Below, piece after piece: positions 418-39,333 of a stretch of 64,000 bases of DNA. Within the stretch, counting starts at the first letter, position 1. Each line of letters starts with the position of its first letter. The DNA is taken from the NCBI RefSeq assembly GCF_041821065.1, contig NZ_JBGUAX010000003.1, positions 372,001 through 436,000 of the forward strand, written 5' to 3'. The position numbers and the translations under genes are program-made. Source of the DNA: Egicoccus sp. AB-alg2. Lineage in GTDB: Bacteria; Actinomycetota; Nitriliruptoria; Nitriliruptorales; Nitriliruptoraceae. The notes beneath the pieces are model-generated. The model was not told the origin of the DNA. It saw only the letters and a list, made by a program, of their open reading frames with translations, and did no database searches.

Positions 418-3400
418 ATGGTGCAGATCCGCCTCCTCGGTCGCCCCGGTGCGGAGGTCGACGGGGTGACGGTGGCCGTCGCCGGGCGGCAACCGGCCCT
501 GCTGGCGGCCCTCGCCATCGACGCCCGGCGGGTGGTCTCCGCGTCGCGGCTGGTGGAGGTCGTCTGGGGCACGCGCCTGCCGGGCGACCCTGCCAACGCC
601 CTGCAGCAGCGCGTCTCCAGCCTGCGCAAGCTGCTGGACCCGCACCGGACCGGCCGGGTCCTGCGGGCGGCAGACGGCGGGTACGTCCTACAGGTCGAGG
701 ACGAGCAGGTCGACGCCCGCCGCTTCGAGGCACGACTGGCCGAGGCCTCCCGGGCGCTGGCCGCCGGAGACGCCGCGGCGGCGGAGGTCGCCTACGCCGA
801 GGCGCTGGCGCTGTGGCAGGGGCCGGCGCTGGACGGCTGCGCCGAGGAACCGTGGGCCGTCGCCGAGACCGCGCGCCTCACCGAGCTGTACCTGAGCGCC
901 GAGGAGGAGCGCACGGACGCCGCCTTCGCCACGGGTCGCGGCGCCGAGCTCGTCGCCGGACTCCGCGACCAGGTCGCGGCACAGCCCCTGCGCGAGCGTC
1001 GCCGCGGCCAGTTGATGCTCGCGCTGTACCGGGCCGGCCGGCAGGCCGACGCGCTGGCCGTGCACGAGGCGACGCGCCAGCTGCTGGCCGAGGAGCTCGG
1101 CGTCGACCCCGGCCCGCACCTGCAGGCGCTGCACCAGCAGATCCTCCGGCAGGACGCCGTCCTGCTGGCGCGTGGGCCCGACGTGGCCGGCGGGCAACCG
1201 GCGGCACCCGCCCGGCCGAGCCGTGACGGCAACCTGCCCGCGGCCACCAGCGACGTCGTCGGGCGCGACGACGCGGTGGAAGGGGTCGGACGGCTGCTCG
1301 AACACGCGCGACTGGTCACGCTGACCGGCCCGGGCGGGGCCGGCAAGACCACGCTGGCCCTGGCGGCCGCGCGTCGTCACACCCGCCCGTCCCACGGCAC
1401 GTGGCTGGTGGAGCTCGCGCCCGTCACCGAGGGCGCGGCGCTGCCGTCCATCGTCGCGACGGCGCTCGACCTCGGCGGCGGTGGGCTGGCCGGCAACCTC
1501 GACGTCGAGGCCCTGACGGCGGCCGTGGCCGGCCAGCGGCGGCTGGTGGTGCTGGACAACTGCGAACACCTGCTCGACGAGGTCGCCGACGTCGTGGCAC
1601 GGCTCCTGGCCGCCGCCCCCGACGTCCGCGTGCTGGCCACCAGCCGCGCGCCGCTGGGCGTGCCCGGGGAGGTGGTGTGGTCCGTCCCGCCGCTCGCGCT
1701 GCCTGCAGCGGATGCCGACCCGACGACCGTGGCCGCCACCGCGGCCGTCGAACTGTTCGTGCAGCGGGTCCGGGCACACACGCCCACGTACGCACTCCGG
1801 GACGCCGACACGCCGGCGGTCGCGGACCTGGTCCGTCGGCTCGACGGGTTGCCGCTGGCGATCGAGCTCGCGGCGGCACGGCTGCGCGTGTTGTCGCTGC
1901 CCGAAGTTCTCGACGGCCTCCAGGACCGTTTCCGCCTGCTGGCCGCCCGCGGCGACCGGCTGCCGTCGCGGCAGCGCAGCCTGCGCGGCGCCCTCGACTG
2001 GAGCTGGGAGCTGCTCGACCAGCCGACCCGCCAGGCGTGGGCGGTGCTGGCGCTGCCGGCCGGGGACGTCGACCGCACGTTCGCGACCGAACTGCTGGAC
2101 GCCGCGGGTGTCCCGGGCGATCCCGTGGACCTGCTGGCCGACCTCGTCGACCGGTCCCTCCTGGTCGCCGAGACGCAGGGCGCGAGGGCGCGGTACCGGA
2201 TGCTCGACTCGGTCCGTGCCTATGGCCGCGAACGCGTTGACGAGGTGGCCCCCGCCGCCCGTGCCGCTCACGCCGACGCCGTCGAGCGACGCCTGGCCGC
2301 GGCGCACGCGGGCCTCGACGACGGTCGGTTCGGCGTGGACGTCGCCGCACTGTTGACGTGGCTCGACGAGGCACGCACGGTGCTGGCGTGGGCCCACCGC
2401 GACGGCGATCGCCGGCGGCTGCAGCGCGTCGCCGGCCGGTGCGGGTGGGCATGGTTCCTGCGCGGCGAGGCACGGGAGGGGGTCCGGTGGCTGGACCGGG
2501 GGCTGGGCGATCCGGCGCAGCTGGATCCGGCCGACGTCGACCCGCACGCCGTCGCGTGGGCGGGCGCGTTGCGTGTCGTCGGTCTGCCTGATCCCGCCGC
2601 CACCGCGTGGGCCGACCTGGCCGTCGCGGTGGCGCCGACACGGACCGCCCGGCTCGTCGCGACCGTGTTCCGGGCGATCGGCCACGCGCGGGCCGGGCGC
2701 CTGCGCGAGGCGTTCGACGACCTCGAGGCGCAACGGCCGCTCGCCGACGAGCTCGGCGGCTGGCCGGCCGGCTTCCGGCACCTGATCCGGGCCCAGCTCG
2801 GACGGATGGCCGGGCGGGCGGTCGAGGTCACCGACGACGCCCGCGCCGCCCTCGAGCTGCTGACCGCGGCCGGCGTCGACTGGGCGCGCGCGTACGCGAT
2901 CGACCTGGTGGTCGACGACCTGCTCGAACGCGGCGAGACGCGACCGGCCGCCGAGCTGGCCGCGGACGGGCTCGCGTTGTGCCGGCGGCTCGGCTACCCG
3001 CAGCTCGAGGCCCGCCTGCGGGTCCAGCTCGGCACGACCCTGGCCGAGCTCGGCGAGCTGTCCGAGGCCCGCGAGCACCTCGAACGTGCGGTGACGGACA
3101 CGGCACGGGCGGGCCGGGACCTGGGGCTCGGCCACGCCCGGCTGCGCGCCGGGGAGGTGGCGCGCCGGGCGGGCGACCCCGCCGCCGCGGACGCGCACCT
3201 GCAGGCGGCGTCGGCCGTCTTCGAGGAGCTCGGTGACGACCTCGGCACGGCCCTGACGCACGCCGAGCTCGCCCTGCTCCAGGCCGGCGACGGCGACCGC
3301 GCCGCGGCGCAGCGGCATGCCCGCGCGGCCGTGGCCGCGGCCGCCCGGGTGTCGGACCCCCGCGTGCTGGCCCACGCCGAGGCCAGCCTCGCCGCCGCCG

Positions 3401-5030: not shown

Positions 5031-5681
5031 GTGCCCCGTCTGTTCGCCGCCCTCTACGACCACATCGGCGCCGGTTACGAGCGCACCGTGATGCGACCGC
5101 GCCGCCACGAGCTGCTGCGCGAGGCACACGGCACCGTCGTCGAACTCGGCGCCGGAACCGGCGCGAACCTCGATCTGTATCCCGACGACGTCGAGGTGCT
5201 GCTCACCGAGCCGGACCCACACATGCGCCGGCGGCTGCAGGCGCGGGCGGCGGACCACCGCGGCGTGCAGGTGCTGGACGCCGCGGCCGAGGCCCTGCCG
5301 CTCGACGACGCGACGGTCGACACGGTGGTCGCGACGCTGGTCCTCTGCAGCGTCGGCGACCCGTCGCGGGCACTGGCGGCGGTCCACCGGGTGCTGCGGC
5401 CGGGCGGTCGTCTGCTGTTCCTGGAGCACGTCCGCTCGCCCGAGCCGCGGATCGCCCGTTGGCAGGACCGCCTGGTCCCGGTCACCAGCCGCGTCGCCGG
5501 CAACTGCCACCCCAACCGCGACACGGTCGCCGCGGTCCGCGACGCCGGCTTCCGCATCAGCCACCTGGTCGAGCACGGCGGGGACGCGCTGACCGAACGC
5601 CTCCAACCCGTGGTGCAGGGCGTGGCGATCCGTACCTCGACGTCGCCAGCGTCGGGTCAGCCGGCGCCGGCCCGCGCCTGA
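5031..5681 (+). CDS. class I SAM-dependent methyltransferase (UbiE-like)
   Basis: A 216-residue enzyme with SAM-binding motif I ELGAGTGAN near residue 40, an acidic motif II (TEPDP) and post-I/III segments VVATLVLCSV and LRPGGRLLFLEHV. This is the pattern of the UbiE/phospholipid N-methyltransferase superfamily. A GTG start at 5031 is chosen because GAGGAGG sits 6-8 bases upstream and the fold begins directly after it. The longer frame from 4968 has no ribosome site. Its last 25 bases overlap tail-to-tail with the next gene on the opposite strand. The substrate is unknown; a lipid or quinone is plausible. Confidence 0.8.
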   Translation: MPRLFAALYDHIGAGYERTVMRPRRHELLREAHGTVVELGAGTGANLDLYPDDVEVLLTEPDPHMRRRLQARAADHRGVQVLDAAAEALPLDDATVDTVVATLVLCSVGDPSRALAAVHRVLRPGGRLLFLEHVRSPEPRIARWQDRLVPVTSRVAGNCHPNRDTVAAVRDAGFRISHLVEHGGDALTERLQPVVQGVAIRTSTSPASGQPAPARA

Positions 5682-8600
5682 TCGAGCAGAGCCGCCAGCG
5701 TCGCGCGGCGGCCGTCCTCGGCCGCCTCCGCGAAGGCCGCGGCCCCCAGCGCCGTCTCGGCCCGAGCCCGAGCCCGCCGCGCGGTCGAATCCGGCCGCGC
5801 GTCCGCCGGGCGCAGGGCCGCGGCCGCACCGAGGCAGGCGGCGGCGGTGGCGGGCTGCCCGTCGCCGGCCAGGGTCGCCGCCAGTGCCTCGAGCCCCTGG
5901 CCCAGGAGCCAGCGGGCCGCACCGGCGCTGGTTTGCACGTCGGTCCCCGGTGGTAGCGAGTCGACGACGGCGGCCAGCGCGTCGAGGTGCCACCGGCGGG
6001 CCTCGGCGAACCGGCCGCCCAGTTCGGCGACGATGCCGAGCTGGTGTCGCTGGGCCACCGCCGACATCCCGAGGTCCAGCGACGCGAACCAGTCCAGCAC
6101 CCGCTGGTGCAGGACCCGTGCCTCGTCGAGGTCACCGGCCGCGGCCGCGATCACCCCGGCCGCCTGGTCGGCGTGCCGGGCCACCAGGGTCGAGCCGAGG
6201 TCGTCGCCGAGCCGGCGTGCGCGGGCCACCGCCTCGCGGGCGCCGGCCAGATCGCCGGTCTCGACCAGTGCCAGCGCCAGCCGGGTCGCCAGCACCGCCT
6301 CGAGGTCCCGGAGCCGCAGCTCGGCCGCCAGCCGCAGCCCCTCGTCGGCGCCGGCGACCGCCTCGCCGAACCAGCCCGCCCACACGTCCAGCTGCGTGAG
6401 CGCGATGAGGGTCTGGACCTGCCCGAACCGGTCGCCCAGGGTCCGGAACCGCTCGCGGGCGGCCGTCATCCGCGTCCGGGCCGTGTCCAGGTCACCCAGC
6501 TGCAGGCAGCCCGTCGCCTCGACCAGTTCGACCGTGGCCAGCGCGAGCGCGTCGCCGGCCGACTGCGCCGCCACCCGTGCCGCGGCGAGATGCGCGTCGG
6601 CGGCCGTGACGTCGCCCACCTGCGTGGCTACGACGGCGCCGACGAGCTCGGCCAGCGCCCGGTCGTCGTCGCCGCCATGCCGGCGCAAGGTCTGGATCGC
6701 CGTGTCCAGCTCGTCGCGGCGCGTGTGGATCACCACGCGGTCCAGCGCGAGGTAGGTGCCCCACAGCGTGGCCAGGGCGCGGTCGCGCGCGTCGCCGTTG
6801 GCCGCCGCGAGCGCCAGCCAGCGCTCACCCTCGCGGCGGTGGCCGCTGAGATACCAGTACCAGCCCAGGCCGACCGCGACCGGGGTGATCCGTTCCACGC
6901 GGCCGGTCCCGGCCAGCCAGCGCAGGGCGGCACGCAGCTCGTCGAGCAGGTCGTCCAGCACCCGGGCGGCGCGCAACTGGTCGGCCGAGCGCAGCAGCGG
7001 AGCCGCCGCCAGGGCCCGGGTCGTGACGTGGGCGGCGTGCCGATCCGTCACGTGGTCCGCCTCCCCGGCGGTCACCAGCTGCTCGTGTCCGAACGCCCGC
7101 AGGGTCTCCAGCAGTCGGTAGCGGGGCGGGTCGGCATCGGGGCTCGCGACGACCAGCGACTTGTCGACGAGCCGGGTGAGCACGTCCAGGACGTCCGAGG
7201 TGGCCAACGCGTCCTCGCCGGTCGGGGTCGCGCCGTCGGAGCAGACCTCCTCGGCGTCGGCCAGCGTGACGTCGCCCGCGAACACGGCCAGCCGTCGCAG
7301 CAGCCGGCGCTCGTGCGTGTCGAGCAGGTCCCAGCTCCACTCGACGACGGCGCGGAGGGTCCGCTGCCGCGGCTGGGCGGTGCGGTCCCCGGCGGTCAGG
7401 AGCCGGAACCGGTCGTCCAGCCGTTCGGCGAGGTCGGCGATCCCGATCGTGCGCAGCCGCGCGGCCGCCAGCTCGAGTGCCAGCGGGATGCCGTCCAGCC
7501 GTCGGCACACCTCGCCGACCGCGGCGGCGTTGTCCGCCGTCAGGGCGAAGTCGGGTCGCACGCGGCTCGCGCGGTCCAGGAACAGCCGGACCGCCTCGAC
7601 GTCGCCCACCTCCTGCGGGCCGCTCGCCTCCGGCGCCGGGGTGCGCAGCGACGCGACCGACCAGACCGCCTCCCCGGCGATGCCCAACGTCTCCCGGCTC
7701 GTGCACAGCAGGCGTGCCCGGCCGCCGGCGGACAGGACGTCCTGCGCGAACACGGCGACGCCGTCGACGACCTGCTCGCAGTTGTCGAGGACCAGCAGGG
7801 TCGGCCGCTGCCGCGTCGCCGCCACCACCCGGGCGGCGTCGTCGCCGGCGCCGGCACCCGCCGGCGAACCGGTGGTGGTCAGCCCGAGCGTCGAGGCGAC
7901 CACCTCGGCGACCTGGGACGGGTCGGTGATGGTGGAGAGGTCGACGAACCAGGCGCCGCCGGGCAGCTCGCCGGCGCCCAGGACCCGCGTCGCCAACTCC
8001 AGCGCCAGCCGGGTCTTCCCGACCCCGCCGGGGCCGACCAGCGTCAACAGCGGACCGCCGTCGAACAGGTCCGCCACCCGGGGCAGTTCCTCCTCGCGCC
8101 CGACGAAGGTGGAGATCGGCCGCCGCAGGTTGCCGGCCGTCGCGCTCGGGCCGGTGCCGACGTCGGGCGGCGTCGGGGGCGCGACGCCCGCCGCGGGTGC
8201 CGCCACCGGGGGGTCGGGGTCCTGCTGGCGCAGCACGGCCTCGTAACGCTGCTGCAGCTCCGGGCCCGGGTCCAGGCCCAGCTCGTCGGCCAGGACCCGG
8301 CGGGCGTCGGCGAACACGGCCAGCGCGTCGGCCTGGCGGCCCGACCGGTACAGGGCCAGCATCAGCTGGGCGCGCAGACCTTCCCGCAGCGGGTGCTCGC
8401 GTACGAGGCGTTCGAGCTCCGGGACGAGCTGGGCGTGCGCACCGCGGCGCAGCAGCACCTCGACGCGGGTCTCCATGGCGGCCAGGCGGACTTCGGCGAG
8501 CCGGCCGATCTCCGGGTCGGCGAACGCGTGGCCGGCGAACTCCTCCAGGGCCTCGCCACGCCACTCGGCCAGTGCGGCGTCGAGGTGCGTCTGCGCCTCG

Positions 8601-8956
8601 TCCAGCCGCCCCGCGGCCAGCGCCCGCCGGCCCGCAGACAGACGCCGTTCGACGCGGGCGGCGTCGTGGTCGGCGGGCTCCAGCAGCAGTGCGTAGCCGG
8701 GCGGGCGTGACACCAGCACGTCGTGGCCGGCCGGACCGAGCGCCCGTCGCAGCCCGGCGACCTGCGACTGCAGGGCGTTGCGGGGGTTGGCCGGCAGCGC
8801 CCGCGGCCACAGCAGCTCGATCAGCTGGTCGGCGGCGACCACCTCACCGGCACGGACGAGCAGCGCCGCCAGCAGCAGGCGCTGTTTGGCTCCGGGGAGG
8901 TCGACGGGCCGACCGGCCACGCGCACCTCGAGCGGTCCCAGTACGCGGAAGTCCAC
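5657..8956 (-). CDS. giant BTAD/AfsR-like regulator with P-loop ATPase and TPR region (second copy)
   Basis: About 1099 residues from a GTG at 8956, where the winged-helix domain begins (VDFRVLGPLEV). The open frame continues further upstream but without domain sense. Order: winged helix 1-90, BTAD domain to about 245, a proline/alanine linker, ATPase with Walker A GPGGVGKT at 308-315 and a LVLDNCE Walker B, then TPR-like helices to the end. It is a paralogue in architecture of the genes at 418 and 36388. It is transcribed divergently from the rhodanese unit at 9095, which makes that unit a candidate target. Its 3' end overlaps the methyltransferase by 25 bases. Confidence 0.85.
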   Translation of the reverse strand: MDFRVLGPLEVRVAGRPVDLPGAKQRLLLAALLVRAGEVVAADQLIELLWPRALPANPRNALQSQVAGLRRALGPAGHDVLVSRPPGYALLLEPADHDAARVERRLSAGRRALAAGRLDEAQTHLDAALAEWRGEALEEFAGHAFADPEIGRLAEVRLAAMETRVEVLLRRGAHAQLVPELERLVREHPLREGLRAQLMLALYRSGRQADALAVFADARRVLADELGLDPGPELQQRYEAVLRQQDPDPPVAAPAAGVAPPTPPDVGTGPSATAGNLRRPISTFVGREEELPRVADLFDGGPLLTLVGPGGVGKTRLALELATRVLGAGELPGGAWFVDLSTITDPSQVAEVVASTLGLTTTGSPAGAGAGDDAARVVAATRQRPTLLVLDNCEQVVDGVAVFAQDVLSAGGRARLLCTSRETLGIAGEAVWSVASLRTPAPEASGPQEVGDVEAVRLFLDRASRVRPDFALTADNAAAVGEVCRRLDGIPLALELAAARLRTIGIADLAERLDDRFRLLTAGDRTAQPRQRTLRAVVEWSWDLLDTHERRLLRRLAVFAGDVTLADAEEVCSDGATPTGEDALATSDVLDVLTRLVDKSLVVASPDADPPRYRLLETLRAFGHEQLVTAGEADHVTDRHAAHVTTRALAAAPLLRSADQLRAARVLDDLLDELRAALRWLAGTGRVERITPVAVGLGWYWYLSGHRREGERWLALAAANGDARDRALATLWGTYLALDRVVIHTRRDELDTAIQTLRRHGGDDDRALAELVGAVVATQVGDVTAADAHLAAARVAAQSAGDALALATVELVEATGCLQLGDLDTARTRMTAARERFRTLGDRFGQVQTLIALTQLDVWAGWFGEAVAGADEGLRLAAELRLRDLEAVLATRLALALVETGDLAGAREAVARARRLGDDLGSTLVARHADQAAGVIAAAAGDLDEARVLHQRVLDWFASLDLGMSAVAQRHQLGIVAELGGRFAEARRWHLDALAAVVDSLPPGTDVQTSAGAARWLLGQGLEALAATLAGDGQPATAAACLGAAAALRPADARPDSTARRARARAETALGAAAFAEAAEDGRRATLAALLDQARAGAG

Positions 8957-9094
8957 GGCCCCGACGCTACTCGCTCGCTCCCGCGCACGAGCCGGAACGC
9001 GGTGGCAGCAGTGGCACGACAGCGCCGTGACAGCGCGGCCCGCGAGGGTGACGCCCGACGCCACAACCGACGACACGAAAGGATGGTGATCGAG

Positions 9095-9433
9095 ATGGAG
9101 ACGGTCGACCGCGACACCCTGCGCGACCTGCTCGCCGCGGACACCGGCACGCGCGTGGTCATGGCCATGGGGCCGCGCCGCTTCGCACAGGCCCACATCC
9201 CCGGCTCGGAGACGTTCGAGGACCTCGACGCGGCCCTCGACGCGCTGCAGCGGGACGAGGACATCGTCCTGTACTGCTCCGGCCCCGACTGCACGGCCAG
9301 CCGCTGGGCCCACCGGGTGCTGCAGAGCCGCGGCTACACCTCGGTGCGCCGGTACCCGGGCGGGCTCGCCGACTGGGACGCGGCCGGGCTGCCGCTGGCC
9401 TCCGACGACCAGCGCCGGGAGGTGGCGGCATGA
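9095..9433 (+). CDS. single-domain rhodanese with active-site cysteine
   Basis: A 112-residue rhodanese (sulfurtransferase) domain. It has the substrate-helix motif AHIPGS and an active-site loop YCSGPDCTAS with Cys61 as the expected persulfide cysteine and a second Cys66. The C-terminal signature YPGGLADW is also present. Loops of this CxGPxC form are known in rhodaneses attached to ArsR regulators. ATG 9095 is chosen over ATG 9083 because GGTGA sits five bases upstream. The stop overlaps the next start (ATGA), beginning a three-gene coupled unit. No signal peptide is seen, so it is likely cytoplasmic. Confidence 0.82.
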   Translation: METVDRDTLRDLLAADTGTRVVMAMGPRRFAQAHIPGSETFEDLDAALDALQRDEDIVLYCSGPDCTASRWAHRVLQSRGYTSVRRYPGGLADWDAAGLPLASDDQRREVAA

Positions 9434-10065
9434 CGGGCACCCACCTGCTGCGCACCGCACCGGCCGTCGCCGTCCCACTGGTCACCGCGGCGCTGCTCGC
9501 CTGGCACCCGCGCGACCCCGAACTCGCCGTCGCGCTCGCCGACATCCCCGTGCGATGGGCCGCCATCCACCTCTGGCTGCTGCTGGCCATGCCGCTGCTC
9601 GCCCTGTTGCTGCGGGACGTGCTGCGCGGGATCGACGGGCGCGCCGCCGCCGCGGCACGCACCCTGGCGGTCCCCGCGGCGGCGCTCTACGCCGCGTTCG
9701 ACGCGCTGGTCGGGTTGGCCACCGGACTCCTCGCCCGGCAGGCGGCGGCCCTGCCGCCAGCCCAGCGGGCCGGTGCGCAGGCGCTGGTGCAGTGGTGGTG
9801 GGAGGTCCCCGCGGTGGTCGGCTGGCTGTCGGCCGCCGCCGTGGCCTCGTGGGCCATCGCGGTGGCGGCCGCGGCGATCGCCGCGCACCGTGCCGGACGG
9901 GGTCCGCTGGTCGCCTACGCGCTGCTGGCCTGCGCGGTGCTGTTCGCAGCCGGACACCCGGGCCTGACCGGCGCGGTGGCGATGACGGCGTTCGCCGTGG
10001 CCGTCGCCGCGGCTCGTGCGGGGATCGGCAGTCGCGTCCCGCAGGTCGAGGCGGCGCGGCCGTGA
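9430..10065 (+). CDS. five- to six-helix membrane protein of unknown function
   Basis: A 211-residue, strongly hydrophobic protein with five or six likely membrane spans, separated by short arginine-bearing loops. A helix-rich Trp cluster (QWWWEVP) lies about two-thirds along. I do not recognise the family. It is locked between two rhodanese genes by ATGA and GTGA overlaps. That suggests it works with them, for instance as a membrane partner for a sulfur or thiol substrate. That role is inference only. Confidence 0.75.
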   Translation: MTGTHLLRTAPAVAVPLVTAALLAWHPRDPELAVALADIPVRWAAIHLWLLLAMPLLALLLRDVLRGIDGRAAAAARTLAVPAAALYAAFDALVGLATGLLARQAAALPPAQRAGAQALVQWWWEVPAVVGWLSAAAVASWAIAVAAAAIAAHRAGRGPLVAYALLACAVLFAAGHPGLTGAVAMTAFAVAVAAARAGIGSRVPQVEAARP

Positions 10066-10406
10066 ACGCGCCCGTGATCGGCGGCCCCGAGCTGCGGCGC
10101 CGACTGGCCGCCGGCGAGCGCCTCTGGCTGGTGCACGCCGCTGGCCCGGTCAGCTTCCGGTCCGCCCACCTGCCCGGCGCCGTCGCCTTCCCGGACGACC
10201 GGCACCTGGAGCGGATGCTGCGCCGCGACGACCACGTGGTCGTCTACGGGGAGTCCCACGACGACCTGCGCAGTCGCGAACTCGCGGCCGGTCTGCATGC
10301 CCGTGGCTACCGGCACGCCCGGTGGTACGCCGGCGGGCTCACGGAGTGGCGGGCGAGCGGGGCACCCGTGGAGGGCGGCGGTGCGCGCCCGCCATCCCGG
10401 CCGTGA
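10062..10406 (+). CDS. rhodanese-fold protein lacking the catalytic cysteine
   Basis: A 114-residue protein with the rhodanese frame: FRSAHLPGAV early, VVVYG before the active loop and YAGGLTEW at the end. At the active-site position, after Tyr62, it has Gly63-Glu-Ser-His-Asp where a cysteine is required, and there is no cysteine elsewhere in the loop. It is therefore expected to be catalytically dead and may bind or regulate. The GTG start at 10062 overlaps the membrane protein's stop (GTGA). It is a divergent sibling of the active rhodanese two genes upstream. Confidence 0.75.
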   Translation: MNAPVIGGPELRRRLAAGERLWLVHAAGPVSFRSAHLPGAVAFPDDRHLERMLRRDDHVVVYGESHDDLRSRELAAGLHARGYRHARWYAGGLTEWRASGAPVEGGGARPPSRP

Positions 10407-11141: not shown

Positions 11142-13640
11142 TCAGCCCCGACCGAAGCGCCGCAGCCGCAGCGAGTTGGTGACCACGGACACGCTGGAGA
11201 ACGCCATCGCGGCACCCGCGATCATCGGATCGAGCAAGCCGAGGGCCGCGACCGGGATGGCCGCGGTGTTGTAGGCGAACGCCCAGAACAGGTTCTGGCG
11301 GATCGTCCGGTGGGTGCGCCGGGACAGCTCGATGGCGCTCGCCACGCCGGCGAGGTCGCCGCGCATGAGGGTGAGGTCGCTGGACTCGATCGCGACGTCG
11401 GTGCCGGTGCCGATGGCGATGCCGAGGTCCGCCTGCACCAGCGCCGGTGCGTCGTTGACCCCGTCGCCGACCATGGCGACCACGTGCCCGCCGGCCTGCA
11501 GACGCTCGACCTCGGCCTGCTTGTCCTCGGGCAGCACCTCGGCCAGCACCCGGTCGATGCCGACCTGGTCGGCGATGGCCTGCGCGGTGCGCTGGTTGTC
11601 ACCGGTGATCATGGCCACCCGCAGCCCCAGGCCGTGGAGCCGCGCGACCGCTTCGGCGGCGCCGTCCTTCAACGTGTCGGCGACCGCCAGCACACCACGG
11701 ACCTCGCCGTCCCAGCCGGCGAACACGGCGGTGCGGCCCCGTGCCTCCAGCCCGGACGCGACCTCCTCGAGGTGTCCGGGCAGCACGAGCCCGGCCTCGG
11801 CCATCAGCTTGCGGCGGCCGACGGCGACCTCGACGGCGTCGACGACGCCGCGCACGCCCTGTCCGGCCACGCTGGCGAACCCGTGCGCCGCGGGCAGGGC
11901 GTCGTCGAGCCGGGCCCGTGCGCCGGCGGCGATGGCCTGACCGACGGGGTGCTCGGAGTCGGCCTCGACCGCACCAGCGGACCGGAGCAGGGTCGGCTCG
12001 TCGGTGGCGGCCGTCACCACGTCGGTGAGCGCCATCTCGCCCTTCGTGAGCGTGCCGGTCTTGTCGAACACGATCGTGTGGATCTCGTGCGTGCGCTCGA
12101 GCACGTCCATCGACTTGATCAGGATGCCCAGCTGGGCGCCCCGCCCGGTCCCGGTCATGGTCGCCATCGGCGTGGCCAGCCCGAGCGCGCACGGGCAGGC
12201 GATGATCAGCACCGCGACGGCCGCGAGCATCGCCTGCCCCGCGTCACCGCCGACCAGCGACCAGGCCGCGAACGTCAGCAGCGCGATCACGATCACGGTG
12301 GGCACGAACACGCCCGAGACCCGGTCGGCCAGGCGCTGCAGATCCGACTTGCCGGCCTGGGCGTCCTCCACCAGCCGCACGATCTGGGCCAGTGCGGTGT
12401 CGGCCCCGACCGCCGTCGCCCGGATCGTCAGCGCCCCCGAGGTGTTGACCGTCGCGCCGGCCACCGTCGCGCCGACCGTCTTGTCGACCGGCACGGACTC
12501 GCCGGTCAGCATGGACTCGTCGACCGCCGAGCCGCCGTCGACGACCTCGCCGTCGACCGGGATCTTCTCGCCCGGGCGGACCTTCAGCAGGTCGCCGACC
12601 TGCACCTGCTCGACCGGCACGAGGTGCTCGACCCCGTCGCGCAGGACCCGGGCCTCCTTGGCGCCCAGCTCCAGCAGCGATCGGATCGCGCGCCCGGCGT
12701 TGCCCTTCGCGCGGGCCTCGAGGTAGCGGCCCAGCACGATGAACGCGATGATCACGACCTGCGCCTCGTAGTACAGGTCGTGCCCGCCCGTGAACACCTC
12801 CCAGGTCGAGTACAGGTAGGCCGCCGAGGTGCCCATCGCGATGAGCGTGTCCATGTTGGCGCTGAGGTGGCGCGCCCGCCGGGCGGCCTCGCGCAGGAAC
12901 GGCCAGCCGACGTGGAACTGGACCAGCGTCGCGACGACGGACTGCGCCGCCCGCATCCGCGGGTCCATCACCGCGAAGTCGTGGTAGAGCATCGTCGACA
13001 GCAGGAACAGCGCGGGCGCGGCCACCAGCGCCAGGCGCCGCCCCCACCCCCGCCGGTGCTCGGCTTCCGTGCGCTCCGCGCGAGCGGCCCGCTCGGCGGG
13101 CGTCGGGCCGGCCGCCACCGGGCGGCCCGCGCTGGCATCGGTGGCCTCGCCGGACGAGCTCGCCGGGTCCATGGCGGCCGTGCCCGACTCCACCGAGTAG
13201 CCGGCCGCCTCGATCACGCTCGGCCACGATGCCGGATCGGCGTCGGGCCCGGCCGTGACGGTGGCGACGCCGGTGGCGAAGTTCACCTGGGCGTCGACGA
13301 CCCCGGGCTGCCTGGTCAGCGCCCGCTGCACGCGCGCGGAGCAGGATCCGCAGGTCATGCCGTCCACCTGCAGCGTGTGCACCGACGGTGCGGCAGGGGA
13401 CGCCGGCGCCGGCTCGGGGACCAGCAGCGTGTAGCCGGCCCGGATCACGGCCTCGCGCAACTGGTCGAGGTCGACGTCGTCGGCGACCCGCACCCGGGCG
13501 TTGCCGGTGGCGAAGTTCACCTCGACGTCGGCGACCCCGGGCTGCTTGGCCAGCGTGCGCTGGACCCGGGCGGCACACGAGCCGCAGGTCATGCCCTCGA
13601 CGGGGAGGTCGAGACGGTTCGTCGAGGTGTCGGTCGACAT
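11142..13640 (-). CDS. copA: copper-exporting P1B-type ATPase CopA
   Basis: An 832-residue heavy-metal P-type ATPase. Two N-terminal HMA metal-binding domains carry GMTCGSC at Cys19/Cys22 and Cys97/Cys100. The membrane metal site is CPC at 482-484, the mark of Cu(I)/Ag(I) P1B-1 pumps. The phosphorylated aspartate is Asp526 in DKTGTLT, with TGES and GDGVNDAP motifs in their usual order. It pumps cytoplasmic Cu(I) outward at ATP cost. It follows csoR by 19 bases on the same strand, and a second metal ATPase lies upstream, so the block is a copper-response operon. Confidence 0.95.
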
Positions 13641-13659
13641 GGGATTCGCTTCCGGTCGG

Positions 13660-13944
13660 TCAGGACTTGACGAGACGCTCGATGGCGCGGGTGGCTTCGG
13701 TCACCATCGCGCGGGCCTTGTCGACGTCGCCCTCGGCGGCGGCGTTGGCGACGCAGTGGCCGACGTGCTCGTCGAGGAGGCCGATGGCGACGTTCTGCAG
13801 GGCACCGTTGACCGCGGCGATCTGCTGCAGGACGTCGATGCAGTAGACGTCCTCGTCGATCATCCGTTGCAGGCCGCGGACCTGGCCCTCGATGCGGCGC
13901 AGGCGCGCCTGGTACTGCTCCTTGGTCATCGTGTAGCCGCGCAA
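13660..13944 (-). CDS. csoR: CsoR-type copper-sensing repressor
   Basis: A 94-residue all-helical DUF156 protein. The Cu(I) ligands align with those known in CsoR: Cys35, His60 and Cys64 (motif HVGHC). Apo-CsoR binds operator DNA, and Cu(I) releases it. The TTG at 13944 is taken as start because AGGAG sits six bases upstream; an internal ATG at 13929 lacks such a site. It is placed between two copper ATPase genes, all on the minus strand, as expected for autoregulated copper resistance. A half-site ATACCCC lies upstream at 13978-13984. Confidence 0.93.
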
Positions 13945-13989
13945 CGAGGTCTCCTGTCCCGGTGCCCACTACGGTACTGGGGTATGCCT

Positions 13990-16131
13990 TCAGGTGGCAG
14001 ACGCCGGTGCGGTCGCCACCGGTGGCGCCAACTGCACGCGGCGCAGCAGCTGGGCGTTCAGCGCCACGATCACGGTCGAGGTGCTCATCAGCACCGCGCC
14101 CAGCGCCATCGGCAGGACGAACCCGATCGGCGCCAGCAGGCCGGCCGCCAGCGGGATGGCCGCGAGGTTGTAGCCGGCCGCCCACCACAGGTTCTGCACC
14201 ATCTTGCGGTAGCTGGCCGCCGACAGCCGCCGCACGGCGACCACACCGCGCGGATCGTCCGACGCGAGCACGATCCCGGCCGATTCGATGGCGACGTCGG
14301 TGCCCGCCCCGATGGCGATGCCGACGTCGGCGCGGGCGAGCGCCGGCGCGTCGTTGACGCCGTCGCCGACCATCGCCACGGTCAGGCCGCGCGCCTGCAG
14401 TTCGGCCACCTTGGCGTCCTTGTCCTCCGGCAGCACCTCGGCGAAGACCTCGTCGATGTCGAGTTCCGCCGCCACCGCCTCGGCGACCGGCCGCGCGTCG
14501 CCGGTGATCATCACGACCGTGACCCCGGCGGCGTGCAGTTGCTCGACCGCCTGACGCGACACGTCGCGGACCTCGTCCTCCAGGGCGACCGCACCCACGA
14601 CCTCGTCGTCGCGGACCACGTGCAGCACGGCGGCACCGCGCCGCGACCACGCCGCCGTCCGCGCCGTCAGCGACGCCGGGACCTCGAGGTGGCGCTCGCG
14701 CAGCAGCGCCGGCCCGCCGACGGCGACCTCGCCCCCGTCGACCGCGGCCGCGACACCGCGGCCCGTCATGGACCGGAACCCCGAGGAGGCCGGCAGCGCA
14801 CCGACCTGCTCGCGGGCGTGGGCGTGGATCGCCCGGGCCAGTGGGTGCTCCGAGTCCGCTTCGACGGCACCGGCCAGCCGGAGCACCTCGTCGGGCGTCG
14901 CCGTGCCGGCGGCCGCGACACCGGTGACGACGTGCTCGCCGCGGGTCAGCGTGCCGGTCTTGTCGAACAGCACGGCGTCGACCGTCCGCATCCGCTCGAG
15001 CGCGAGCCGGTCCTTGACGAGGATGCCCGACCGGGCCGACTTGGCGGTCGAGATGGCGGTCACGAGCGGGATCGCCAGCCCGAGCGCGTGCGGACAGGCG
15101 ATCACCAGGACCGTCACGGTCCGGTCGAGCGCGAAGGCCGGTTGGCCGAGCAGGAGCCACACGACCGCGGTGACGGCGCCCGCGGCCAGGGCGACGTAGA
15201 AGAGCAGCGCCGCCGCGCGGTCGGCGAGGACCTGCGTCCGCGACCGCGACGCCTGCGCCTCGGTCACCATCCGCTGGATGCCGGCGAGCGCGGTCTGCTC
15301 ACCGGTTGCGGTCACGCGCACACGCAGGCTCGCGTCGGCGACCACCGTGCCGGCGACGACACGGTCGCCGGGACGGCGGGTGACCGGCGTCGACTCGCCG
15401 GTGATCATCGACTCGTCGACGTCCGCGGTGCCCGCGACCACCTCGCCGTCGGCGGGCGTGCGCGCCCCGGGCCGTACCAGGACGAGGTCGCCGACGGCCA
15501 GGTCGCCGACCCGGACGTGCTCGACCTCGCCGTCCTCGCGGACGCGCTCGGCGTCGTCGGGCAGCAGCTCGGCCAGCGCCGCGAGCGCGCCGCGTGCCTG
15601 TCCGATGGCCCGCATCTCGATCCAGTGGCCAAGCAGCATGATCGCGATCAGCAGGGCCAGTTCCCACCACACCTCCTGCGAGAACCAGCCGAGCGAGGTG
15701 GCCATGGAGGCGAGGTAGGCCACCGTGATCGCCGTGGCGATCAGCAGCATCATGCCGGGCGTGCGGGCGCGAGCCTCCTGCAGGCCGCCGGTCAGGAACG
15801 GCCAGCCGCCGTAGAAGAACACCACCGAGCCCAGCACGGGCCCGATCCAGGCCGCGCCGGGGATCGCCGGCGCCTGGTAGCCGAGCAGGTCCTGGACGTG
15901 GTGGGACCAGACGACGACCGGGATCGTGAGCACCAGCGTGAGCCAGAACCGGTCACGGAAGCTGGCGGCGTGGTCGCCGTGGTCGTGGTGGACCCCGTGA
16001 CCCGCACGCCCCTCGTGTCCCTCGTGGCCGCGCTCGCCGGCGGCGGCAGGGCGCGCCGCGTCGTCGGCCGCTTCGTCGTGGTGGACGTGCCGCACGGGCG
16101 CGGGTTCCGACGTGTGGCCGTGGCGCTGCAT
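13990..16131 (-). CDS. copB: P1B-3-type (CopB-like) copper/silver ATPase
   Basis: A 713-residue heavy-metal ATPase without HMA domains. It has a histidine-rich N-terminus (residues 4-55, many HH and HxH), and its membrane site is CPH at 346-348. The CPH motif and His-rich tail define the CopB group, reported to handle Cu(II)/Ag(I) rather than Cu(I). The catalytic Asp390 lies in DKTGTLT, and TGES and GDGVNDAP are intact. It leads the copper block: its start lies 25-77 bases from two CsoR-type inverted repeats, and csoR follows 45 bases after its stop. Confidence 0.92.
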   Translation of the reverse strand: MQRHGHTSEPAPVRHVHHDEAADDAARPAAAGERGHEGHEGRAGHGVHHDHGDHAASFRDRFWLTLVLTIPVVVWSHHVQDLLGYQAPAIPGAAWIGPVLGSVVFFYGGWPFLTGGLQEARARTPGMMLLIATAITVAYLASMATSLGWFSQEVWWELALLIAIMLLGHWIEMRAIGQARGALAALAELLPDDAERVREDGEVEHVRVGDLAVGDLVLVRPGARTPADGEVVAGTADVDESMITGESTPVTRRPGDRVVAGTVVADASLRVRVTATGEQTALAGIQRMVTEAQASRSRTQVLADRAAALLFYVALAAGAVTAVVWLLLGQPAFALDRTVTVLVIACPHALGLAIPLVTAISTAKSARSGILVKDRLALERMRTVDAVLFDKTGTLTRGEHVVTGVAAAGTATPDEVLRLAGAVEADSEHPLARAIHAHAREQVGALPASSGFRSMTGRGVAAAVDGGEVAVGGPALLRERHLEVPASLTARTAAWSRRGAAVLHVVRDDEVVGAVALEDEVRDVSRQAVEQLHAAGVTVVMITGDARPVAEAVAAELDIDEVFAEVLPEDKDAKVAELQARGLTVAMVGDGVNDAPALARADVGIAIGAGTDVAIESAGIVLASDDPRGVVAVRRLSAASYRKMVQNLWWAAGYNLAAIPLAAGLLAPIGFVLPMALGAVLMSTSTVIVALNAQLLRRVQLAPPVATAPASAT

Positions 16132-36387: not shown

Positions 36388-39333
36388 TCAGCGTCTCGCG
36401 GCCAGCGCGTCGATGCGTGCCAGGCACGACACGGTCAGCGCCGCGATGTCGGGGTGGGTGTCGCCCGCGCGACGGGCGGCCGCCACCTCGGCGGATCCCA
36501 GCCGCGCCCGGGCGGCCTCCAGCGCCGAACCGATCCGCCGGGCCTCCGAGCCGAACGAGGGCCGGGTGACGAGCCGCTCCAGCGCCGCGGCCAGTTCGAC
36601 GGCGTCGGCGTCCGCCGCGATGCGGGCGAACAGGACCACGAGGTTGCGCAGCCCCGTGGCCAGGAACGCGTCGGCGCCCGCCTCCAGCCACATGGTGAGG
36701 GCGTCGCGGTGGCGCCGGAGGGCGTCTCCTGGCTCGCCGTGGCGGCCGCGGACGGCGACATCGGCCAGCCGCGCCACCCCTTCGGCGAAGCGGGCGCCGC
36801 CCGCGGCGGCCACCTGCAGCGCCGTGTCGAGCGCCTCCAGCGCCCGGTCGGGCGCGACGTCCGCGAGCGCCTCACCGAGCGCGTAGTGGGCCATGGCGCG
36901 GGTGCTCGGGGCGCCGCTGCGCTCCGCGAGTGCGACCGCCTCCTCGGCGGCGCGGACCGCCTCGCCGCTGCGCTCCTGGTAGCCGTGTGCCAGCGAGGTG
37001 CCGACCAATGCCAGCGCCATCAGCCCGGGATGCTGCTGTGCGCGGGCGAGCTCCAGGTTGGTGGCGTACAGCGCCAGCCCGCCGTCCAGGTCCCCGGTGG
37101 TGATGCACAGGTCGCCGAGCATCTCCGTGAGCGTCGTGGCCTCGGGCCCGGCGAAGGGGCCGTCGCGCAGCGGTGCGGCCAGCCGTTGGGCCTCCTCGGT
37201 GCGTCCGGCGATCATCGCGGCGGCGATGGCGCAGGCCTGGACGCGGGTACGCAGCGACGGCGACGTCACGTCGTCGCGGTCCAGCACGTCGCGACCCCAG
37301 TCCAGCAGGTCGGCCCGCGCGAGGACGTAGGCGGCCCGGTGCACCATCCCGGTCATCTCGGCCAGGGTGGCGCCGTCGCCGGCCGCGAGCGCCCGCCGGT
37401 GGACGGCCCGCAGATCCGGCAGCGCGAGCACCAGGTCGCGTAGCGCCTCCGTCTCCGCCGCGGTGTTCACGGCCTGGTCGGAGCGGCGGACGAGGTCGAG
37501 CACGGCCGCGGTCTGTCGTGCGAACACCATCGGTGCCTGGGGGTCGCGCCGTAGCCGGTCCCACGCGTCCAGCCGCACCGGTTCCAGCAGGCGGTAGCGC
37601 TCGTCGCCGACCCGCACCACCAGCGAGCACTCCACCAGGCGGCCGAGCGCGGCGGCGGTCGCGTACCCGTCCGTGCCCGGCTCGCCGCACACGGCCCGGA
37701 CGTCCTGCAGGCCGAACGTGGCGGAGAAGACGCCCAGGTGGCGGAACAGCCGCTGGTCGACCTCGGGCAGCAGGTCGTAGGACCAGTCGACGACGCCGCG
37801 GACGGTGCGGTGCCGTAGCGCGCCGCGGCCGCCCGGACGGTCGAGCACGTCGAGGTGGGTCCGCAGGCGGGCCAGCAGCGTGCCGACCGGGAGTGCGGCG
37901 GCACGGGCAGCCGCCAGTTCGATCGCCAGCGGCAGGCCGTCGACCGCCCCGACGACGGCGGCCGCGTCGCGCACCGCCACCGGCGGACCACCGGCGCGGG
38001 CGACCCGGTCGAGGAAGAGCGCGACGCCCGCATCCGCCTCCGACGCGTCGTCGGTCGCCGGCACGGGCAGCGGCTCCAGTCGCCGCACCACCTCGCCGTC
38101 CACGTCCAGGCGCTGCCGGCTGGTCGCGAGCAGCCGGACGTCGGTGCGGCGCCGCAGGACGGTGCCGACGACGGTGGCCACCGTGTCCAGGACGTGCTCG
38201 CAGTTGTCCAGCACGACCAGGCCGCGGTGGCGGGCGAGGACCTCGACGGCCTGCGTCAGCGGGTCGGCGCCGCCGGACGGCCCGGCGTCCATCGCCTCCA
38301 GCACGACGCCGGCGACCTCGTCGCCCGTGCGGGCCGTGGCCAGGTCCACCCACACGGCAGGTTCCGTGGCCGCGACCAGACCGGCCAGGTGGGTCTTGCC
38401 GACCCCGCCCGGGCCGACGACCGTGACCAGCGGCCCCGACCGCAGCGCCGCCGTCACGCGCTCGCGCTCGCGGTCACGGCCGTAGCTGGCGGTGTGTTCC
38501 GGCGGCGCCGCGGCGCCGGTCGGGGACACGGTTGAGCGCGGCGACGTGACGGCTGCGGTCGTCGAGACCGCCGGTGTCGGGTCCTCGTGCCAGGCGACGG
38601 TTCCTCCGCGCAGCAGCCGGCGTTCCAGGTCGGCCACCCGCGGGCCGGGGTCGAGCCCCAGCTCGTCGGCCAGCGTGCGGCGCCATCGCCCCAGCGCGGC
38701 GAGCGCGTCGGGGACACGACCGGCAGCGGCCAGCGCCGTCGCCAGCGTGAGCGCCGCCTCCTCGTCGAGGTGCTGCTCGGCGGCCACCGCCTGCAGCTCC
38801 GCCACGGCCGTCGGTGCGTCGCCGACCCGTAGCCGGGCGCCGGCCAGCAGCACGCGCGCCTCCAACCGCAGCCGCTCGAGCCGTGCGGCCTCGACCTGCG
38901 CGAGGTCGTCGGCCAACTCGCCGTAGGCGCGGCCGTGCCACCACGCCAGGGCGGCCTCCAACACGGGCACCGTCGTCGCGGGCTCGCCCGTCCGCCGGCG
39001 TGCCGCGGCCACCGCGGCCGTGAACCGTTCGGCGTCCACCTGGCCCGGGGCCAGCGTCAGCGCGTAGCCGGCGGCACCGCCACGGATGGTGGTGACGCCG
39101 CCCAGCAGCTCGCGCAGCCGGGTGACGTGCGACTGCAGGCTGTTGCGGGCGCTGTCGGGTGGGTCGTCGCCCCACACGGCCGTGACCAGCGCGTCGGTGG
39201 AGACGGTGCTGCCGCCGGCCAGCACCAGCGCGGTCAGCAGCCGCTGGCGTCGCGGCCCGGTCAGGGGTACGGCGACGCCGGCCCGCTCGATCGCGAGCGG
39301 TCCCAGCACCCGGATCCGTACCGGCTCGACCAC
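36388..39333 (-). CDS. giant BTAD/AfsR-like regulator with P-loop ATPase and TPR region (third copy)
   Basis: About 981 residues from GTG 39333. It has a winged helix ([10 protein letters not shown]), a BTAD domain to roughly 245, a linker, ATPase with GPGGVGKTH and LVVLDNCEH, and a TPR-like C-terminal half. The start is set where the winged helix begins; no strong ribosome site is visible. It sits downstream of icd on the same strand, separated by a perfect hairpin. It is upstream of the methyltransferase/acetyltransferase pair, which carries twin palindromes and may be its target. The ligand is unknown. Confidence 0.84.

Follow-up and report, generated by a model that had tools for sequence, protein, structure and literature searches.

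Two-domain rhodaneses (thiosulfate sulfurtransferases) in which one domain is inactive are well established, and for most large BTAD/STAND regulators it is, to our knowledge, not known which signal they respond to. A rhodanese fold that serves binding and not catalysis has been described in TBC1D23 (PMC7274447), and in Streptomyces a CsoR-like regulator, a PDO and a rhodanese form a sulfane sulfur circuit (PMC7533328). Among SARP-LAL regulators, PimR has an operator made of heptamers with 4-bp spacers and the consensus CGGCAAG (PMC5930380).

In the window, i.e., the whole stretch of 64,000 nucleotides that was analysed, a large BTAD regulator stands divergent from genes for a cysteine-bearing rhodanese (R1), a membrane protein (MP) and a cysteine-free protein of rhodanese fold (R2). 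Like the Streptomyces circuit, this locus links a regulator to a rhodanese in an actinobacterium, but the regulator is of another type, and no persulfide dioxygenase or sulfite transporter was seen at the unit. R2 resembles the non-catalytic rhodanese domains (TBC1D23, the inactive domain of tandem rhodaneses) in having a fold proposed for binding over catalysis; it differs from them in that it is bacterial, exists as a free protein of one domain and is linked to a regulator. All parts of the unit belong to known kinds; in the open-licence literature we found no paper tying BTAD regulators to rhodaneses, nor any case of a cysteine-less rhodanese lastingly paired with a SARP-LAL-like regulator. 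The reading we prefer, and consider reasonably probable, pairs a SARP-LAL-like regulator with a local target operon that diverges from it and has the non-catalytic rhodanese R2 at its core.

The two rhodaneses

The features discussed below are as follows.

5657-8956, minus strand: large BTAD regulator, SARP-LAL-like, divergent from the rhodanese unit (Pfam); its orthologues adjoin R2-type rhodaneses in three other genomes (G006, G022 and G032)
9017-9034, no strand: direct repeat CGACAGC-N4-TGACAGC with an 11-bp period between the regulator and R1, candidate operator (shuffling test, genome-wide count, likeness to the PimR operator)
9095-9433, plus strand: R1, single-domain rhodanese of 112 aa with Cys61 and Cys66 (CSGPDC); Pfam Rhodanese, 39.7 bits; G006 orthologue 54% identical
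9430-10065, plus strand: MP, membrane protein of 211 aa with about six helices (hydropathy); by gene order, outside the conserved unit
10062-10406, plus strand: R2, cysteine-free rhodanese-fold protein of 114 aa with Gly63 and His25; Pfam Rhodanese, 39.5 bits

The original prediction had described three genes joined by ATGA (R1/MP) and GTGA (MP/R2) overlaps, with Cys61 in the first rhodanese, a five- to six-helix membrane protein in the middle, Gly63 at the cysteine position of a second rhodanese fold, and a giant BTAD regulator divergent from the unit. This picture stands: translation, Pfam and codon statistics agree on the genes (the codon-position GC of R1, MP and R2 is gene-typical, with 0.90-0.97 at the third position), Cys61 and Gly63 are confirmed, about six hydrophobic helices are seen by hydropathy, and the regulator is found by Pfam on the minus strand.

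R1 combines the rhodanese fold with the catalytic cysteine, Cys61 opening the loop C61-SGPD-C66, and by its sequence is probably an active sulfurtransferase. R2 likewise has the rhodanese fold (its structure model is confident, at pLDDT 89.7, and matches many PDB rhodaneses), but the catalytic cysteine of an active rhodanese is absent, Gly63 standing at that position in a protein with zero Cys. Compared with actinobacterial single-domain rhodaneses (CSNxACxNS loop), R1 is alike in length, fold and a Cys loop with a second Cys, whereas R2 differs in having Gly for Cys and His25 for Asp, Glu or Met. Among 56 distinct aligned rhodaneses of neighbouring sequence space, the catalytic position is Cys in 48 and Gly in exactly four, namely the R2s of the window genome (G000) and of three other Nitriliruptoraceae genomes (G006, G022 and G032). 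Position 25 is His in the same four and Asp, Glu, Met or Asn in the other aligned rhodaneses, the two residues together occurring in 4/4 regulator-adjacent R2s and in 0 of the other aligned sequences. Two single-domain rhodaneses with Asp for the catalytic Cys were also observed (L073 in G408 and L074 in G394); they keep the second loop Cys (DSGPxC) and lie away from BTAD regulators.

In the tree, the four R2s are monophyletic (support 0.98), as are the two R1s (support 0.989). It follows from the monophyly of R2 that the cysteine was lost once, in the common ancestor of the four Nitriliruptoraceae loci, and that the state was then kept across genera with the Gly63/His25 signature fixed. We regard it as very unlikely that R2 is a decaying, functionless pseudoenzyme kept by proximity alone. 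Such decay would suit its patchy distribution (4/35 family genomes surveyed) and the loss of the second loop Cys as well in the window and G032 R2s, but Gly63 and His25 are fixed across four genera, the coding GC pattern of R2 is intact, and its identity between G000 and G006 (53%) equals that of R1 (54%), so that R2 does not seem to be decaying. The second loop Cys is kept in the other two R2s (GFDGAC and GRDATC), and therefore not even its loss is common to all of them. Together with the confident fold model, these points argue for a protein that keeps a non-catalytic role, the role itself being inferred, and R2 might retain some activity via another residue. Most likely it would work without sulfur transfer, binding either a ligand non-covalently in the old active-site pocket or a protein partner, which could possibly be the regulator itself.

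Gene order across Nitriliruptoraceae and the place of the membrane protein

An orthologous BTAD regulator (42-54% identical in G006, G022 and G032) is divergent from R2 at 4/4 loci. R1 is found at two of the four (G000 and G006), R2 standing beside the regulator without it in G022 and G032, while MP is found at one, that of the window genome. Judged by gene order, the conserved feature of the locus is the regulator divergent from R2, the evidence on this pair coming from four loci of a single family in mostly fragmented assemblies. The layout of rhodaneses and regulator is not due to chance, since the R1 and R2 orthologues recur beside the orthologous regulator in a second genome. Across the samples searched, the combination of regulator and R2 is rare and confined to a single family: among the 35 family genomes, the three that share the window's genus gave no R2-type match; a scan of genome contigs gave no matches with R2 alone as query and, with the R2 alignment as query, matched only G006 and G022, both Nitriliruptoraceae MAGs; and no Gly63/His25 R2-type proteins beyond the four were present in a 394-genome sample of the class around G183 (a large actinobacterial class) or in a phylum sample of about 400 genomes.

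The live/dead rhodanese pair, as it had been predicted, is thus seen in two genomes, and R1 is probably an active sulfurtransferase at both of these loci. It could be thought that R1 and R2 are the halves of a split tandem rhodanese, in which R2 would pair with the active R1 in the way the inactive domain does in two-domain thiosulfate sulfurtransferases, helping to place the substrate. This is consistent with the overlap that couples R1 and R2 translationally in G006, with the retention of both in two genomes, and with the precedent of two-domain rhodaneses having one inactive domain. However, R2 stands without R1 at the G022 and G032 loci and therefore needs no R1 from its own locus, and we rate a split tandem as rather unlikely.

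MP gave no match to a curated family in Pfam and no sequence relative in the PDB, and AlphaFold on MP alone produced a poor model (pLDDT 57.8). In the phylum sample, another 11 genomes carry homologues of it, and in the flanks retrieved from these (some contigs end near the gene) no rhodanese was detected by a profile that detects generic rhodaneses elsewhere. The well-conserved positions of the family are His26, Trp43, His47, Tyr87, Gly95 and Gly99; the family alignment holds no conserved Cys, the window copy having one and most homologues none. In several species of one genus (g130: L133, L134, L135 and L139) the MP homologue lies between genes for a HAD-like phosphatase and a RimJ-type GNAT, a neighbourhood that is conserved on its own, without rhodaneses.

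The original prediction had counted the membrane protein as part of the system and proposed that persulfide is relayed, or sulfur sensed, at the membrane. In favour of this are the position of MP, which lies between the two rhodanese genes and overlaps each of them, and the CSGPDC loop kept by R1. Such a relay calls for a membrane protein that is conserved together with the rhodaneses and carries a conserved cysteine, and MP shows neither feature. It is missing at the other three loci, the three-gene order that includes MP was encountered in the window genome only, and homologues without rhodanese neighbours, which the prediction itself had named as evidence against it, are what the 11 other genomes contain. 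With no conserved Cys in the MP family, a relay of persulfide through MP has no chemical footing; R2 has no conserved Cys either, and the window R2 is free of Cys altogether. We therefore hold this reading to be highly improbable. In G006 the R1 stop and the R2 start overlap directly as TTGA, without MP, and the R1 tail (VAA-stop) is identical in G006 and the window, so that MP occupies the very point at which the two genes meet elsewhere. From these comparisons, MP is best regarded as a local extra and not as a conserved member of the unit, presumably an unrelated gene for a membrane protein that was inserted right where R1 and R2 join in this genome (or was lost elsewhere). The most eye-catching gene of an operon can thus be its least conserved part.

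The divergent regulator and its candidate operator

The regulator has the architecture of SARP-LAL regulators, with Pfam matches to a Trans_reg_C winged helix, BTAD (150 bits), NB-ARC/AAA and TPR, of which the AAA, NB-ARC and TPR matches are weak and below curated cut-offs; no LuxR helix-turn-helix was found in it. It is like the PimR type in the N-terminal winged helix and BTAD, the ATPase and the TPR-like C-terminal part, and also in lying beside its likely target with heptamers (YGRCAGC here) separated by 4-bp spacers. It differs in that the likely target here is a rhodanese unit and not a regulator of an antibiotic pathway.

The start codons of the regulator and R1 are 138 bp apart (8957-9094), and this interval contains CGACAGC-GCCG-TGACAGC, two heptamers with a 4-bp spacer and an 11-bp period. 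At lag 11 the stretch gives 8 matches in a row (p=0.003 by dinucleotide shuffling). The string GACAGCG-N4-GACAGCG occurs a single time in the 4.84-Mb genome, at this locus. The corresponding intergenic stretch of G006 holds three heptamers spaced at this period (p=0.001), that of G022 one heptamer and no repeat pair, and that of G032 (45 bp) no heptamer repeat. Because its layout matches that of a SARP-LAL (PimR) operator, the repeat is likely, by analogy, to be the operator of the regulator. As it had been noticed by eye ahead of the test, and as G032 lacks it, this counts as support and not as proof. The suggested link between the BTAD regulator and the unit is in this way strengthened, by the pairing in four genomes and by a SARP-type repeat in two.

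On the strength of the repeat and the synteny, the regulator, with its BTAD, STAND ATPase and TPR parts, would probably bind the 11-bp-period repeat and control the divergent operon. One could go further and suppose that R2 is a pseudo-sulfurtransferase sensor, which binds a sulfur ligand, another anion or the regulator and feeds back on the SARP-type regulator; we consider this specific version unlikely. In any event, a conserved dead-site partner and a compact candidate operator make a small testable case, in which the pseudoenzyme could be either the sensor or the output.

Neighbouring genes

Two further BTAD domains are present in the window, at 709-1146 (plus strand) and 38611-39039 (minus strand), and the genome has 11 in total. 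A shared GNAT neighbour was considered and set aside: G022 and G032 also have GNATs close to the unit, but the G022 match is mainly to the generic domain and the orientations differ. A link of the unit to the downstream copper genes was likewise dismissed as coincidence, these genes being on the opposite strand and the genes inspected beyond R2 in G006, G022 and G032 being of other kinds. The copper-type block itself (11142-16131, minus strand) is convergent with the rhodanese unit and encodes a CopA-like P-type ATPase in which the metal-binding repeat GMTCGSC occurs twice, a second P-type ATPase, and a CsoR-family regulator (13660-13944) in which the Cys-His-Cys positions are present.
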